Notes under the pieces: model-generated | Told to the model about the DNA's origin: nothing | What the model saw: only the letters and a program-made list of their open reading frames with translations | Databases searched by the model: none | Program-made: the position numbers and the translations under genes | Shown here: one piece after another, positions 8,636 through 34,845 of the stretch | How the letters are laid out: each line of letters begins with the position of its first letter | Numbering within the stretch: the first letter of the stretch is position 1 | Source of the DNA: Veillonella criceti | Lineage (GTDB): Bacteria; Bacillota; Negativicutes; Veillonellales; Veillonellaceae | DNA: 64,000 bases | Reading direction: 5' to 3' | Assembly: GCF_900460315.1 (NCBI RefSeq) | Contig: NZ_UHIO01000001.1 | Location: 899,501 to 963,500, forward strand

Positions 8636-11600
8636 TACCATACCCCCGTTTCTGCTGTAAACTCTCGATTATTGTCATATAAATATTGTTTAATAGCTTG
8701 CCCACCTTTCGAGCCTAACCAAGACATAAAAGATTCAGCATCTATAGCAGATACATTAAATGTAACAGGAGCTTGAGTTGCAATACTACTATCAAAACTA
8801 CTCGACCGATTAATATCGCCTCCATCTGAAAAAGTAGGGATAACTCCTTGATTAAGCATATTAAGCGTTGGTTGTCCTAACTCTTGTGCTGCTCGAGCAT
8901 TAATTACATATTCACCATTGGATAGCATAGCAGGAATGCTATCTGATGTACTAGTGCCAGTTCCTTTAACAGCTCCACCACTAGCAAACGCACTAGCTGC
9001 GAACAATTTAGCCATTGAAAGCTGTCCTGCAACTAATGCACCTGCACCAGGCGCTGCCCAAGGATTTGATTCAATCACCGCCGCCGTAGCATTAGCTGCC
9101 ATAGCTCCCGTTTTAGCTGCTTCTGCACTTGCCTCTTGTCTAGCATTTTGAATTGATTGTTGACTTGTTGCTTTATTTAATGCCTGAATTATGCCTAGAT
9201 TCGCAATCCATTTTTGCAATACACCTTTAATTAATGTAGTCATTAACGACGATGCTAAACTTTTAAAGGTTTCTGACAAACTTTGGCCTTTAATAATACA
9301 ATCAGTAAGTCCTGCAGCTAAACCATCTTGCAACTGAATGGCCATCTCAGTATATAAGGCTTTCATATAATCGCCCCATTCAACAGCTTGTAACATTAAC
9401 TGATCATGCCAAATTTGTCGCTGTTGACTTAATAATTCTTCGTTGGCGAGAATGGATGCATAACTTTCACCAGTTACCTCATCTTTTTCAGCCATCATAC
9501 TCATATAACTAGACAATTCTGTTTTTTGATTTGCAAGCTTCTCTTGTAAATGCGCCTGCTCCAAAACAGTTGCACGGCTGTAATATGTTTTTAACGCGTC
9601 ACTTTGAATTTGAGCAATTGCAGTTTGTGCAGCTTGTTCAACAGCTACTTTATTATCAGCTACCGATTTAGCTATTGCTAACGCTTCTGCTTTATTTTCC
9701 TCATAATTAACTTTAATATTAATAGATTCCTGAGTAAGGCGTTCAATCTTAGCTTGTTTATCTGCTTCAGATAGTTGTGGCTTACCGTATGATTTTCCTG
9801 ATTCAGGAGCCTGTAATTTAGCAATCTCCTGTTTAATGCTTGTTAACTTTTCTTTCATGGCTATAGTTTTTTCGCCAGTTTTTGCATATTTCTCTGCTTC
9901 TTCTGTCGCTTTTTTAGCGTAAGATTGATACTTAGCTAATTCATTCCCTACATCTTCCGCTTGTTGCTTTGCTTTTTCTAATACTTTTGCATACGCACTA
10001 ATTTCGGATGTATTAGCTTTTGACTTAATTTCAAAAATAATTTTCTGGACTTTATCTTCTTTGCCAGCTTTTGCAACGTTAAAAGCATGTGTAATTTCAC
10101 TAAATCCACCAGCCGAAAAAGTAGGAACCTGACCTGAGTTAATAGCATTTAACGCTGGAATTCCAATAGTATTAACTGCCTTAGCATTAATTACATATTC
10201 ACCATTGGATAACATAGCAGGAATGCTATCTGAGCGCCCTGTTCCGTGTCCATTAACACGCCCACCACTCGCAAAACCGACAATTCCGCCATTTTTACGC
10301 TTAACAGCACTCGTACTAGCAGAATTACTTTCAATTTTATTAATTATGAAATCAATAGGATGTGCTAATGCTTGTTTTAATGAATTGAATTTATCTGATA
10401 CCCAATCAATAGCTCCGCCAACTGCATTTCTAATATTTTTAGAAGTATTATCTATCCAGCTATTTATACTGTCCCAACAGCGAATTGCAACTTCCTTCAC
10501 TTCATCCCAGTGCATATATAACATCACTAATGCTGCTACAATAAGACTTACTGCTAATAATATAGGATTAGCAACTACCGCAGCTTTAAATGCTAACGCG
10601 GCCATTTTTGCTGCAATAAAGCCATTCTTTACCGCATTAATTACCGTAACTGTAGTTGCAATACTTGCAATAACTGCAATTAAATCTTTCACAGCCGTCT
10701 TATTTTCTTCAACAAATTGCTTTATTTCAACAAAGACTGCAACTACAGTATTAGCCATAGATCCTGCTGCCGGGCTAACAAGAGAAATTTCATTAAGAAT
10801 GGCATCTCCAATATTAGCATTCGTTGCATTTGCTTTAATATTTTCAATATGCCCCTTAGCTTTTTCTGCTAAATCTGAAAATTCTGCTAAAATACCGGGG
10901 ACATCAAAAGCCTTACTAATAATATCACCAACACCAGCCATGCTATTAGTAATCGTTTCTTGCAGATTAGAAAATCTACCCATCAAAGAATCACTCAACG
11001 AAGCAGCCGCTCCCTCTGTTTTTTCCTTCATTGCATCGAATAAAGTACTCATGGCCTCTCGCGTTAAATCTCCACCTCTAGCCATATCCTGCAAGTCAGC
11101 TACTGACACACCCATTTTTTGACTCAATAAATCCCAAGCAGGTAGTCCCGCTTCTGTCAATTGCATCATTTCTTCTGCAGAAATTTTGCCTTTCATTTGC
11201 ATTTGTGTGAGTGCTGTATTTACCCGGCCTATTTGTTCGGATGTTAACCCCCACGCAGAGCCAGCATCAACTATAGTTTGCATTTTAGCTGCTGCACTCT
11301 GTGCAGAATCACCGATATTTACCCAAGCGCGCGCCATTGGCATCAACTCATTAGTATCATAGGCTGATGCCTCTCCAATCGCTTTTATATCGTTAATAAG
11401 CTGTTCGGCCCCCGCACTACCAAGATTAAATGCAAGTCCCTTTTTTAATATTTCAAGGTTAGCACTAGCTTGCAGTGCTTCTTTAGCAAATCCAGTAATA
11501 GCGCTAACTGCAAAAGCACTCACCACTGCATTTCTAACACTACTTAACACGCTCTTAAGTCCTGACACCTCATATGTAGCATTTTTAGCCTCAGTTGCAA

Positions 11601-29405: not shown

Positions 29406-29631
29406 AGTAGCCTACATTGCGACTAAATTATTCTAAATAATTTTCTTTTTTACGTATTTGATAAAATATAGTAAGCTGTAAGTAAGTATGAACTAGTGCT
29501 AAGAATAATAATCGCTTTCCTTCTGTTTCTATAAACACAAGACCAAACATAAATGCTATTACTTCTAATTGACCTACTATTCTCCACACATCAACTACTG
29601 TTAAGGGCCTCGCAATTCGAGGCTCTTTTTT
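29375..29631 (+). ncRNA. Candidate antisense RNA to the 71-aa membrane protein gene
   Basis: The extended -10 promoter at 29363 would start an RNA near 29375. At 29607-29623 the plus strand has GCCTCG-CAATT-CGAGGC followed by TCTTTTTTATTT, a good intrinsic terminator. The RNA of about 255 nt would cover nearly the whole 29428-29643 gene on the other strand. No reading frame is needed to explain promoter and terminator. Inferred from signals only. Confidence 0.45.
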
Positions 29632-29643
29632 ATTTGGTGGCAT
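29428..29643 (-). CDS. Small basic membrane protein, 71 aa
   Basis: MPPNKKEPRIARPLTVVDVW then a hydrophobic region (LEVIAFMFGLVFIE, LLFLALVHTYLQLTIFYQI) and a basic end. ATG at 29643 with GGGTGAGGA upstream; a GTG three codons earlier is possible. It is the leftmost gene of the small early group, opposite a plus-strand promoter and terminator. Function unknown. Confidence 0.55.
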   Translation of the reverse strand: MPPNKKEPRIARPLTVVDVWRIVGQLEVIAFMFGLVFIETEGKRLLFLALVHTYLQLTIFYQIRKKENYLE

Positions 29644-29703
29644 TTTCCTCACCCTCTCTTCGTTTTAAGAGCCCTTGATTGGGCGTATGAAGGAGGTGGC
29701 TTC

Positions 29704-29754
29704 ATGTTTTTGGGCCAGTTTTTGAATACGCCTTGTTCCTATCAATTTAAATAA
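29704..29754 (+). CDS. Possible 16-residue peptide inside the structured RNA
   Basis: AAGGAGGTGG, a perfect Shine-Dalgarno, lies 6 nt before ATG at 29704, which opens MFLGQFLNTPCSYQFK and TAA. Site and start codon sit in the loop and stem of the ATGAAG/CTTCAT hairpin, so translation could be controlled by folding. A short frame like this can occur by chance; the ribosome site is the only argument for it. Confidence 0.3.
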   Translation: MFLGQFLNTPCSYQFK

Positions 29755-29995
29755 TTAATAGTTTTACTAACTATCAATGTTTTTATTGGCTAATGCGGAA
29801 AGGCGTCTCGTAAGTTTTGGCTGTCCAAACAGCCCTAAGTGATGCGACTCATGAAGAAATAGTTGCTGATAACATCTATGCGTTTAAATTTAGTCGACGG
29901 AGGTCAAAAGTTTTGTCGAGAAGCTATACTTCGAAGCTCGACACAAACTTGCTAAGTTTAAACGATGCAATGAGTTATAGGTAAAAAAGTTGGAT

Positions 29996-30030
29996 AAAAA
30001 ACTCTCGTATTATCAGTGCGAGAGTTTTTT
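29996..30030. terminator. Bidirectional terminator AAAAAACTCTCG / CGAGAGTTTTTT
   Basis: ACTCTCG (30001-30007) pairs with CGAGAGT (30019-30025), flanked by A5 and T6, so both strands get a T run. It ends the structured RNA on the plus strand, or would end a leftward transcript. Confidence 0.8.
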
Positions 30031-30114
30031 ATTTTATGTCCCCCTTAACTTCACCATTTTTTGGCATCATATTCTCCTCTCATTTTTTTATTTGGTGGCA
30101 TGAACTTATCTCCT

Positions 30115-30167: not shown

Positions 30168-30533
30168 ATGAAACGTGATTTAGACTTACTTAGAAACATA
30201 TTAATCACGATAGAGGGTAGTGATACCGATTTAGATACTAACAGTTTTCTTCATTTATGTGATGATATCGAAACTATCGATTATCATATCTATCTACTTG
30301 CAGATGCCGGCTATATCGACTATTATGATATTTCCTGCTGTAATGGTTCTAGATACCCTCAATATTTAGTAAAATACCTTACTAGCGATGGATGTGATTA
30401 CTTAAGTAGTATAAAAGACGATAATGTATGGTCTCACGTAAAGAAGAAAATAAATAAAGTCGGAGATTCTGTTACACTAGAAACCATTAAAATAATTGGT
30501 TCTAAATTCATTCTTCAGTACCTAGGGCTTTAG
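30168..30533 (+). CDS. DUF2513 family phage protein, 121 aa
   Basis: Starts MKRDLDLLRNILITIEGSD at 30168 behind AAAGGAGGTG; the frame is open further upstream to 30036 but has no site there and crosses the promoter. Family features: IDYHIYLLADAGYIDYYD and LTSDGCDYLSSIKDDNVW, then VKKKINKVGDSVTLETIK. Role in Firmicute prophages unknown; winged-helix-like pattern. One of few rightward early genes and it overlaps the convergent 59-aa gene by 26 nt. Confidence 0.82.
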   Translation: MKRDLDLLRNILITIEGSDTDLDTNSFLHLCDDIETIDYHIYLLADAGYIDYYDISCCNGSRYPQYLVKYLTSDGCDYLSSIKDDNVWSHVKKKINKVGDSVTLETIKIIGSKFILQYLGL

Positions 30534-30754: not shown

Positions 30755-30952
30755 TTATATTCCAAAAAAAATACAATCAATAGGAATTCTATATGCTTCT
30801 GAAATCTTCTTTTGATAAATAGGATTTACATATCCAGGATTTCGTTCCCATTTCATCAATGTATCTTTTCCGATACCTAATGATTTCGCAGCTTCAATCA
30901 ATGTTAGATTCGCATTAACTCGCGCAGCTTTTAATGAAATCTGAAAGTCCAT
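30755..30952 (-). CDS. Cro-like XRE-family regulator, 65 aa
   Basis: Single helix-turn-helix: LKAARVNANLTLIEAAKSLG then KDTLMKWERNPGYVNP, typical of small prophage XRE proteins that repress the CI gene and start the lytic programme. It is divergent from the CI-like gene, with TTGACA-17-TAAAAT promoter and operators between them. TGAGGAGG before the ATG. Confidence 0.82.
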   Translation of the reverse strand: MDFQISLKAARVNANLTLIEAAKSLGIGKDTLMKWERNPGYVNPIYQKKISEAYRIPIDCIFFGI

Positions 30953-31069: not shown

Positions 31070-31097
31070 ATAAGTAAAAGAAAAGGTGGTGAAAATA

Positions 31098-31496
31098 ATG
31101 CCAACAGAACAAGAAGTGAAAACCTTATTTAGTAAAAGACTTACGGAAATAATGGAAAAACATAATATCAATCAAGTTGAACTTTCAAAAGTTCTTAATG
31201 TCAGTGAATCTACTGTAGGCAAATGGCTCTTAATGAAAGCTATGCCTAGAATGGGAGTAATTCAAAAATTGGCTGATTATTTTAATGTTGGAAAAAGTTA
31301 TTTTCTAGAAGAAACAAATGGCTATTACGAAGATCCCGAGGTAGCCGCCCTTGCAGAAGAAGCTAGGACTAATCCTGACATTCGTATCCTATTTTCCGCT
31401 GCTAAAGATATATCTAAAGAGAATATGCAGAAAACCATAGATTTTGTAAAATTTTTAAAGTCACAAGAACGCAGTGACAATGATTTTTCGGAGTGA
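31098..31496 (+). CDS. CI-like (ImmR-type) repressor, 132 aa
   Basis: Starts MPTEQEVKTLFSKRL at 31098 behind AAAGGTGG. HTH: NINQVELSKVLNVSESTVGKW (about residues 27-47), then a helical C-terminal part without an S24 peptidase domain, as in ImmR of ICEBs1, which is removed by the ImmA protease instead of self-cleavage. The ImmA-like gene follows 11 nt later. Confidence 0.85.
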   Translation: MPTEQEVKTLFSKRLTEIMEKHNINQVELSKVLNVSESTVGKWLLMKAMPRMGVIQKLADYFNVGKSYFLEETNGYYEDPEVAALAEEARTNPDIRILFSAAKDISKENMQKTIDFVKFLKSQERSDNDFSE

Positions 31497-33762: not shown

Positions 33763-34845
33763 ATGTCGACAAAATATAATACAACCTTACGCAAAAAGGA
33801 CAACGGTTGGCAAGTTATTGTTAGTTATAAAACGTCATCAGGCAAATGGAGACAAAAATCTAAACAAGGGTTTGACGAAAAATGGAAAGCTAAAAACTAC
33901 GGCAATGATTTAATTGAGCAAATAAAAAAAGAGCCAGACCTTAATACTGACTACAAAGGGATTACTTTAGAAGAATTTACAGAGATATATAAAGCCGATA
34001 ATAAAGATAGATTAACCTATAATACACTACAAGCAACAAAATATGCAGTAAAAGCTTTAGGTAATGTAAGATTTAAGTCTATTGAAGAAATAACCCTATT
34101 AGATATAAACAAGAAATTTAGAGAATCTAAACTATCAACATCTACTAAAAATTTATATATTCGCTTATTAAAAATAATTTTCAAGCACGCCATATCCCCA
34201 TATAAAATCATAGCCCACAGTCCACTTAGTGAAGTTAAAGAGCATAAAGAGAAAAAAAATATCACTCAGCACATATCATCTAAGGTTTACACGGCAAATG
34301 AGATAGAATCATTATTTACTGGGCTAAAAAATAAAAAGAAAAAGGAATACTATTACCAATGTTGCTTAGCTTATTACTGTGGCCTACGATATGGCGAAAT
34401 AGTAGGGTTATCTTGGTTCGATATTGATTTTAATGAAAAAACTCTTTCTGTGTCTAGGCAAGTTGCTCGAACAAGTACCAAAAAATATAGCTTAACAGCC
34501 CCTAAAACAGCGGGAAGCATTCGAACCATACCGATGCCTCCGAAGTTAATTGAAACGCTCTTAGAGTACAAAAAAATAGCCCCACAGAATGATAAACAAC
34601 TATTATTTCTCAGAAATTCCAGTACAAACTTTGTAAATGCCTATATCCATACTATCATCAAAGATAAAAATTTTCACGATTTACGGCATACATACGCAAC
34701 AACACTCTTAGCGAATGGTGTTGATATAAAAACGGTTGCAGCCCTGTTAGGCGATACTGTACAGACTGTAATTAACAACTATATACACTACACCGAAGAG
34801 ATGAGAAAAAAGGCAGCTATAGATGTTGCTAATATTTTTAAGTAG
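33763..34845 (+). CDS. int: Tyrosine integrase, 360 aa
   Basis: Catalyses prophage insertion and excision. N-terminal arm-binding domain (TLRKKDNGWQVIVSYKTSSG), SAM-like core-binding domain (residues about 70-165) and catalytic domain with R209 in YCGLRYGEI, H305-R308 in HDLRHTYAT and Y340 in NNYIHY. AGGAGCG before the ATG. It sits at the prophage edge, pointing to the host gene lpxA. Confidence 0.95.
   Translation: MSTKYNTTLRKKDNGWQVIVSYKTSSGKWRQKSKQGFDEKWKAKNYGNDLIEQIKKEPDLNTDYKGITLEEFTEIYKADNKDRLTYNTLQATKYAVKALGNVRFKSIEEITLLDINKKFRESKLSTSTKNLYIRLLKIIFKHAISPYKIIAHSPLSEVKEHKEKKNITQHISSKVYTANEIESLFTGLKNKKKKEYYYQCCLAYYCGLRYGEIVGLSWFDIDFNEKTLSVSRQVARTSTKKYSLTAPKTAGSIRTIPMPPKLIETLLEYKKIAPQNDKQLLFLRNSSTNFVNAYIHTIIKDKNFHDLRHTYATTLLANGVDIKTVAALLGDTVQTVINNYIHYTEEMRKKAAIDVANIFK

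Follow-up and report, generated by a model that had tools for sequence, protein, structure and literature searches.

Which RNA is encoded by the strongly folding segment at positions 29682–30031 of a Veillonella criceti prophage, on which strand is it made, and what could it do there? The 64,000-nt stretch of DNA analysed here (the window) was scanned against the Rfam families with cmscan, and only FuFi-1 (RF02986) and one tRNA exceeded the cut-off. The FuFi-1 match lies at 29794–30031 on the plus strand (82.6 bits against a gathering threshold of 59.6, E 5.1e-16) and spans the full model, positions 1–175. In the Rfam alignment, the window copy has the conserved motifs UAAGUG, AGAA, UGCAA and GGUAAA before the terminator. 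It is the single FuFi-1 match in the source genome. Infernal and Rfam thus gave a strong match to a known family for a segment that the sequence-only reading could not match to any RNA, and this match rules out a novel RNA class. RF02986 is an orphan family of the sRNA gene class in Rfam, and to our knowledge it is a family without a known function. A search of the literature by family name and by RF02986 (titles and abstract openings) found no function for it, and broader searches at the same level gave nothing on the FuFi-1 RNA among the matches listed.

The segment 29682–30031 has a minimum free energy (MFE) of −108 kcal/mol, against −77.7 (sd 5.77) for its shuffled versions (z −5.25; 0 of 100 shuffles as good), and the whole element described below folds at z −5.35. 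The reverse strand of the segment folds well too (z −4.97), so the fold energy alone gives no strand. The Rfam match, a Shine–Dalgarno sequence, a short ORF and the promoters of the homologues all lie on the plus strand, and the early genes lie on the opposite one. For this reason a cis leader of the early operon read leftward, one of the roles proposed from the letters alone, was rejected.

Judged by its homologues, the FuFi-1 element extends upstream of the Rfam model. The idea of a new RNA class fails as stated, and what survives of it is that the full element reaches well beyond RF02986 as catalogued.

29669–30032, plus strand: whole FuFi-1 element, about 364 nt, from the 5′ hairpin to the terminator (Rfam match for the 3′ part, 5′ domain, similarity to the sibling copy)
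29794–30031, plus strand: part under the Rfam model RF02986 (cmscan)

The 5′ end at about 29669 was inferred from the point where similarity to the sibling copy (G002) begins and from the presence of the 5′ domain in 33 of 35 sequences. The span 29682–30031 proposed earlier was therefore about right, with the RNA starting some 13 nt before it. By our anchors, the element measures 267–436 nt (median 349, n = 33). Hairpin 1, helices P2 and P3, the terminator and a putative P1 of the consensus structure are shared by RF02986 and the window copy. The 175-position model starts at P1 and covers neither the leader ORF nor strands 1–3 nor the hairpin at the 5′ end; its structure line pairs none of the strands of the pseudoknots PK1, PK2 and PK4 described below, and such lines do not show pseudoknots.

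Homologues were collected using DNA patterns in viral and genome contigs plus genome searches, with removal of duplicates (L129, L034, L092, L140, L119 and L173) and, by eye, of false pattern matches (L116, L118, L123, L125, L127, L131, L137 and L139). The final set comprised 36 sequences with the window, or 35 after leaving out the truncated L130. One sequence (L003b) was used in a test with n = 25 but had no assigned leader and was left out of the alignment A5 (MAFFT, 34 sequences), the structure of which was drawn after seeing the sequences; L134 is also without a leader. In one pattern search with 68 matches, most were without the core by a motif filter, and six were scanned with cmscan (L065, L019, L018, L029, L049 and L015). 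Another gave 37 matches, seven of them members known already or, like L097, recognised afterwards; cmscan of the remaining 30 showed two, identical to each other, to be real. The pattern match L115 gave no FuFi-1 match by Rfam scan.

The members include sequences from Lachnospiraceae, Peptococcaceae, Blautia, Eubacterium and other Clostridia. With the window genome counted, RF02986 matches were found in 4 of 150 relatives (two over the cut-off) and in 2 of 398 phylum-wide genomes, in scans whose filters lose weak matches. All 20 records with pattern matches, chosen because the motif was present, carried an RF02986 match, 19 of them over the cut-off. No blastn match was found for the window segment or the L169 segment in phages or plasmids, nor for the L122 segment in phages. 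In one prophage (L007, genome G046) a pair of FuFi-1 copies, diverged from each other, is separated by about 1 kb (9699–9923 and 10690–10930); both are opposite the early genes and below the Rfam cut-off, and the second has an atypical hairpin 1. Decayed copies were seen in Eisenbergiella (L130, without the 3′ half, with a second copy, L135, in the same genome) and in Blautia parvula (L134, with no leader domain and a strong core of 138.8 bits). A sub-threshold match in Bacillus subtilis, the control genome, could be chance.

The segment had been described as gene-free, and this does not hold: its 5′ part contains a 16-codon ORF preceded by a Shine–Dalgarno sequence. The features of this domain, with the partner strand in the core, are as follows.

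29671–29674, plus strand: strand 1 (GCCC), forming the 5′-terminal hairpin with strand 2, visible in the window and other homologues
29681–29688, plus strand: strand 2 (GGGCGTAT), partner of strand 1 or strand 3 (2:3 covariation)
29692–29696, plus strand: Shine–Dalgarno sequence GGAGG of the leader ORF
29704–29754, plus strand: leader ORF, MFLGQFLNTPCSYQFK, 16 codons in the window (conservation of M-T-K-L-L-x-L-P)
29726–29734, plus strand: strand 3 (ATACGCCTT), over the Thr-Pro codons, partner of strand 2 or strand 4 (covariation)
29738–29742, plus strand: 5′ strand of PK4 (CCTAT), inside the leader ORF, pairing with 29977–29981
29800–29806, plus strand: strand 4 (AAGGCGT), in the core, partner of strand 3 (3:4 covariation)

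A short ORF upstream of the Rfam start was found in 33 of 35 sequences. In L098 the leader frame is off, and L134 is without the 5′ domain. A Shine–Dalgarno-like motif precedes it, by pattern, in 32 of 33 leaders. The consensus peptide of the 33 leaders is M-T-K-L-L-x-L-P, with a median length of 13 codons and a length of exactly 12 in 11 of them. UUG, a weak start codon, opens 24 leaders, AUG eight and GUG one; the start codons were chosen by us in frame, so the agreement in frame is partly circular. Leu stands three codons ahead of Pro in 31 of the 32 in-frame leaders (TTG 27, TTA 2, CTG 2), and Pro itself is encoded by CCC (15), CCT (11), CCA (3) or CCG (1), with Ala in two. The residues after Pro are variable. 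The in-frame stop comes at a median of 5 codons and that of the +1 frame at 19 (p 0.006); compared with the +2 frame the distance is not significantly shorter (p 0.12). The codon pattern of the leaders supports the view that the putative peptide is made.

Two patterns built on the ORF only gave 14 matches in viral contigs, and all 14 were FuFi-1 (3 known, 11 others above the cut-off; L165 and L173 are the same sequence), which indicates that the leader ORF belongs to the element. Dual-function sRNAs such as RNAIII, SgrS and SR1 combine a small ORF with a regulatory RNA. FuFi-1 resembles them in this and differs in that its own codons are structural partners. In addition, a further insert between the leader and P1, with shared motifs such as GTGG.ACCAA.GCAC.TTAAACTGG, was seen by eye in L098, L138, L132, L065, L165, L166, L169, L172 and L019.

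Across the family, the Leu-Pro codons of the leader fall in strand 3, and two helices compete for this strand. Strand 2, which lies before the Shine–Dalgarno sequence (GGCGTAT in the window), pairs with it in the 2:3 helix, and strand 4 pairs with it in the 3:4 helix; each gave 0 of 20000 permutations (n = 33). These values were obtained with narrower blocks and weighted pairs, the first crude tests having given 96 and 224 of 20000 for 2:3 and 3:4, respectively. Since both helices use the same strand-3 bases, they are mutually exclusive. The 1:2 hairpin was not significant (2637 of 20000 permutations), though it is visible in a number of homologues. In an energy comparison that ignores pseudoknots and allows any downstream partner, 2:3 was favoured over the downstream pairing by a median of 2.6 kcal/mol, and the two were within 3 kcal/mol in 20 of 33 sequences. 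The fold of the window copy with the first strand included has 1:2 plus downstream pairing of strand 3; the 2:3 helix is chosen by the shorter segment (29682–30031) and by the fold of the sibling copy.

The core that follows includes these parts.

29819–29834, plus strand: hairpin 1, with loop 29824–29828 (TCCAA) as the 5′ strand of PK1 (covariation)
29847–29852, plus strand: 5′ strand of P3, pairing with 29970–29975 (92.8% of cells paired)
29859–29879, plus strand: P2 hairpin, with loop 29866–29872 (CTGATAA) as the 5′ strand of PK2 (covariation)
29880–29964, plus strand: nested long stems, a variable insertion (alignment)
29977–29981, plus strand: 3′ strand of PK4 (ATAGG) (covariation)
29990–29994, plus strand: 3′ strand of PK1 (TTGGA) (covariation)
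29994–30032, plus strand: intrinsic terminator, with loop 30010–30016 (TTATCAG), the 3′ strand of PK2, kissing the P2 loop (inverted repeat, PK2)

The consensus helices (hairpin 1, P2, P3 and the terminator) covary in the alignment that includes the window. For 36 pairs in six helices of 34 sequences, 89.2% of cells were paired, compared with 63.7% after shuffling and 33–43% in slid controls, and there were 355 double-change cells against 110 (0 of 500 shuffles). Together with the fold energy, this bears out the earlier claim of a structured RNA. The strong terminator seen at its end was also confirmed: its 14-nt arms (29994–30007 and 30019–30032) are perfectly complementary inverted repeats accompanied by runs of A and T. 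A simple terminator scan did not list this terminator because the loop exceeds the length allowed by that scan. In the window, two pairs of P1 are non-standard, and a duplex fold gives a weak helix. The core also has conserved unpaired stretches, and these suggest a protein or RNA partner.

Three pseudoknots tie these parts together. In PK1, the hairpin 1 loop pairs with the strand that immediately precedes the terminator (91.7% of cells paired, 72.3% shuffled, 0 of 500). PK2 is a kissing interaction between the loops of P2 and the terminator (82.5% of cells paired, 50.6% shuffled, 0 of 500). PK2 has 81 double-change cells against 23.0 (sd 4.1) in shuffles, and only two G-U cells; in two of its five measures the shuffles equalled the real alignment (double-change pairs in 253 of 500 and further pair types in 231 of 500). 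A column scan of the alignment ranked the PK2 register first, and the outer pairs of PK1 were in the first. By permutation, PK1 and PK2 gave 0 of 20000 each (n = 25). PK4 is formed by the bases after the Pro codon (GYUCYC..) and the conserved AUAGGGUAAAC upstream of PK1. It appeared with z 8.9 in a permutation scan of 253 block pairs in 32 sequences (L004 also being left out), which was made without knowledge of PK4, and narrower blocks gave z 9.5 and 0 of 20000 permutations (n = 33). Examples are CCCGAT/ATCGGG (L124), TCTTAAA/TTTAAGA (L082), TTTTCGCAG/TTGCGAAAA (L004) and CCTAT/ATAGG (window). As exceptions, L068 has only three pairs, and the best duplexes of L117, L132 and L170 are out of register. 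The top of the block scan was made up of PK2, the terminator, PK1, P3, PK4, P2 and P1 (z 5.6–15.2), followed by the second Rfam helix (4.7), 3:4 (4.7) and 2:3 (4.0). Two further signals, between block J and the tail that follows the terminator (z 3.6) and between strand 2 and the region of strand 4 (z 3.2), may have arisen by chance in a scan of 253 pairs.

The long stems that stood out in the segment proved to be partly as described. The outer stem (29881–29893/29952–29964) has the 13 nt claimed for it, with 92% complementarity; the nested one (29911–29920/29937–29946), also described as 13 bp, has 10 nt and 90% complementarity as a repeat and is longer, with a bulge, in the MFE structure. 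The nested-stem columns (101–240) hold at most 10 letters in 11 of 34 sequences, with a range from 0 to 113. Based on the alignment, the nested long stems are a variable insertion, around which the conserved core and the leader lie.

Members found after the model was fixed, by Rfam scans of unused pattern matches, were L019, a match of earlier pattern searches missed by the motif filter until the scan, and the identical L085/L103. By eye, they carry the leaders MLTKLLNLPAPLI and MTKLLILPCSFNEK, respectively, and show 2:3 and 3:4. PK4 reads CCCT/AGGG and CTTT/AAAG, PK1 has 4 of 5 pairs in L019 and reads CTATG/CATAG in L085/L103, and PK2 reads GGCTCTAT/ATAGAGCC and CTATGTC/GACATAG. Fusobacterium phage Funu2 (L175, 4001–4063) matches the 3′ end of the L126 RNA only, that is, the PK1 strand and the terminator, and no FuFi-1 was found by Rfam in the 2001 bases scanned. 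This stretch is a FuFi-1 remnant, which may serve as a plain terminator.

A sigma-70-like promoter scoring at least 9 (one point per match, up to 12, and 1 more for an extended −10) precedes the RNA in 30 of 33 sequences; stretches drawn at random from these loci reached that score in 120 of 990 cases. No recognisable promoter was found before the window copy (score 7). The sibling RNA, which is 97% identical to it over a 207-nt stretch, is preceded by TTGACT-18-TAAAAT, and the upstream flanks of the two differ from the 5′ end of the RNA on (window 29640–29668; sibling locus L009, 9600–9660). Recombination may have removed the promoter of the window copy, or another promoter may be in use. Lacking a recognisable promoter, unlike the sibling, the window copy may also be silent.

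The RNA of the window lies in a prophage, among genes for YqaJ, RecT, HTH proteins, DUF2513, RhuM and a tyrosine integrase, on the strand opposite the early lytic genes and the same as that of the repressor.

30168–30533, plus strand: DUF2513 gene (Pfam PF10711, 1.3e-20)
30755–30952, minus strand: small HTH (Cro-like) gene (PF01381, 1.6e-7)
31086–31496, plus strand: HTH repressor (PF01381, 1e-10; Phage_CI_repr, 1.3e-4)
33763–34845, plus strand: phage integrase (PF00589, 5.2e-22)

By mechanical ORF calls for 35 loci, the closest ORF upstream of the RNA runs against it in 25 and with it in 5, none being called in the other 5; the closest ORF downstream converges on the RNA in 24, shares its strand in 10 (window included) and was not called in one. 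The first minus-strand ORFs within 1.3 kb downstream (n = 31) include Cro/C1-type HTH_26 (14), HTH_3 (13) and DUF739 (6), in overlapping counts, with one Rha and one Bro antirepressor. The next co-oriented genes of at least 100 residues (n = 28) include HTH_3 (20) and S24 peptidase (6), and those of at least 290 residues (n = 21) tyrosine (10) and serine (2) recombinases. The placement beside cro is thus frequent, not universal. On the lambda map, OOP/pRE lies opposite the early genes, near cro and oriented like cI; FuFi-1 is placed likewise.

Based on the above results, we tentatively favour, at slightly less than even confidence, the reading that FuFi-1 is a regulatory RNA of the lysogeny region that stands alone and is gated by translation, the role being suggested by its location. 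A phage regulatory RNA was also the first candidate of the sequence-only reading, and this is borne out as the likeliest role for a structured, terminated RNA in the early/immunity region of a prophage. We suggest the following course of events. A transcript of about 364 nt would be made on its own, from the strand that carries the repressor gene and opposite the early lytic genes. As the comparison of homologues shows, its mature fold links the post-Pro codons with a strand ahead of the terminator (PK4), the first hairpin loop with the strand that comes next (PK1) and the loops of P2 and the terminator with each other (PK2). The leader ORF runs across strand 3 and through most, if not all, of the PK4 strand, which means that a ribosome translating the leader would have to open 3:4 and PK4. 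The RNA would consequently switch between two states, one translated and one compactly folded, and the switching might report the translation state of the cell, given the UUG starts in 24 of 33 leaders. The folded RNA would act in the lysis–lysogeny region, most simply by favouring the prophage state, as its location suggests.

A broader form of the proposal, held with more doubt, is possible. FuFi-1 would be a widespread phage translation sensor, the folded fraction of which rises as translation falters, biasing lysogeny or induction. The 12-codon leader would then be a structural strand, each ribosome untying pseudoknots built around a terminator, and the reading, if true, would cover temperate phages of Firmicutes and Fusobacteria. 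For FuFi-1, the analysis adds a more complete anatomy, a small conserved peptide and a place in the phage genome, and the anatomy makes the testable claim that the RNA is not translated and fully folded at once. If it is a lysogeny regulator, it would be an RNA-based switch of the cro/cI region linking phage fate to the translation state of the host, in anaerobic bacteria, where such decisions are little known.

It is possible, if somewhat unlikely, that FuFi-1 is instead prophage cargo that happens to lie in the immunity region and acts in trans (superinfection exclusion, counter-defence or host control), with the leader only tuning folding or stability. The homologues' own promoter and the terminator agree with this, as do the conserved unpaired stretches and the differing flanks around nearly identical RNAs in the window and its sibling, which mark a discrete module. 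Random cargo would not need the site at which FuFi-1 recurs in different phages, beside Cro-like, HTH and antirepressor genes.

A further case, quite unlikely in our view, is that of a cis attenuator of a lambda-pRE-like transcript, in which leader translation would set read-through antisense via cro into the repressor. Leader-peptide attenuators (trp, erm and cat) keep leader codons in a strand with alternative partners, with a terminator downstream. FuFi-1 is alike in its leader-strand logic, with a Shine–Dalgarno sequence, mutually exclusive helices, and a terminator whose loop and preceding strands are wired to upstream parts; in many loci a repressor-like gene follows in the same orientation. 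In some loci (L007, L065 and the window), however, other genes intervene. Moreover, the 253 block pairs held no strong covarying antiterminator, the best rivals for the 5′ arm of the terminator reaching z 2.4–2.6. The terminator therefore appears to be constitutive and to belong to the fold, and this speaks for a stand-alone RNA rather than an attenuator.

An antisense RNA like OOP, C4 or sar, pairing with an early or antirepressor mRNA, appears improbable. FuFi-1 does lie opposite early genes, and its convergent neighbours include the two antirepressors mentioned above, but the convergent downstream ORF usually ends beyond the terminator motif and not under the RNA. We found no cognate complementarity to the start regions of the cro-like, next early and repressor genes (z 0.69, 0.04 and 0.96), which makes a simple OOP-like role less likely, and such an RNA would not need the FuFi-1 fold. 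According to an excerpt of PMC12197685, lambda OOP is a 77-nt antisense RNA to cII, and P22 sar and P1/P7 C4 are small phage RNAs of immunity circuits with antisense mechanisms. FuFi-1 has in common with the latter two its kind and setting, and the mechanism described there is what sets them apart; from OOP it differs in its 267–436 nt, its knots, its leader ORF and the missing complementarity to neighbouring start regions. Finally, an arrest peptide, with Leu-Leu-x-Leu-Pro stalling ribosomes that the RNA sequesters or uses to sense a ligand, would account for the short leader and its amino acids conserved with synonymous codons, but it is very improbable given the varying residues after Pro.

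Several loci have a DUF2513 or DUF2513-like gene close to FuFi-1 and co-oriented with it: the window (by Pfam) and, judged by eye, L007 (11697–12065), L008 (8296–8679) and L122 (about −855 to −471 from the core). It should be noted that an identical 18-nt repeat, TTTTTTATTTGGTGGCAT, flanks the RNA at 29626–29643 and 30084–30101, and around 30700 there is a stretch resembling it. The minus-strand reading of the repeat opens with ATG CCA CCA AAT AAA AAA, and the repeat may be a repeated gene start.
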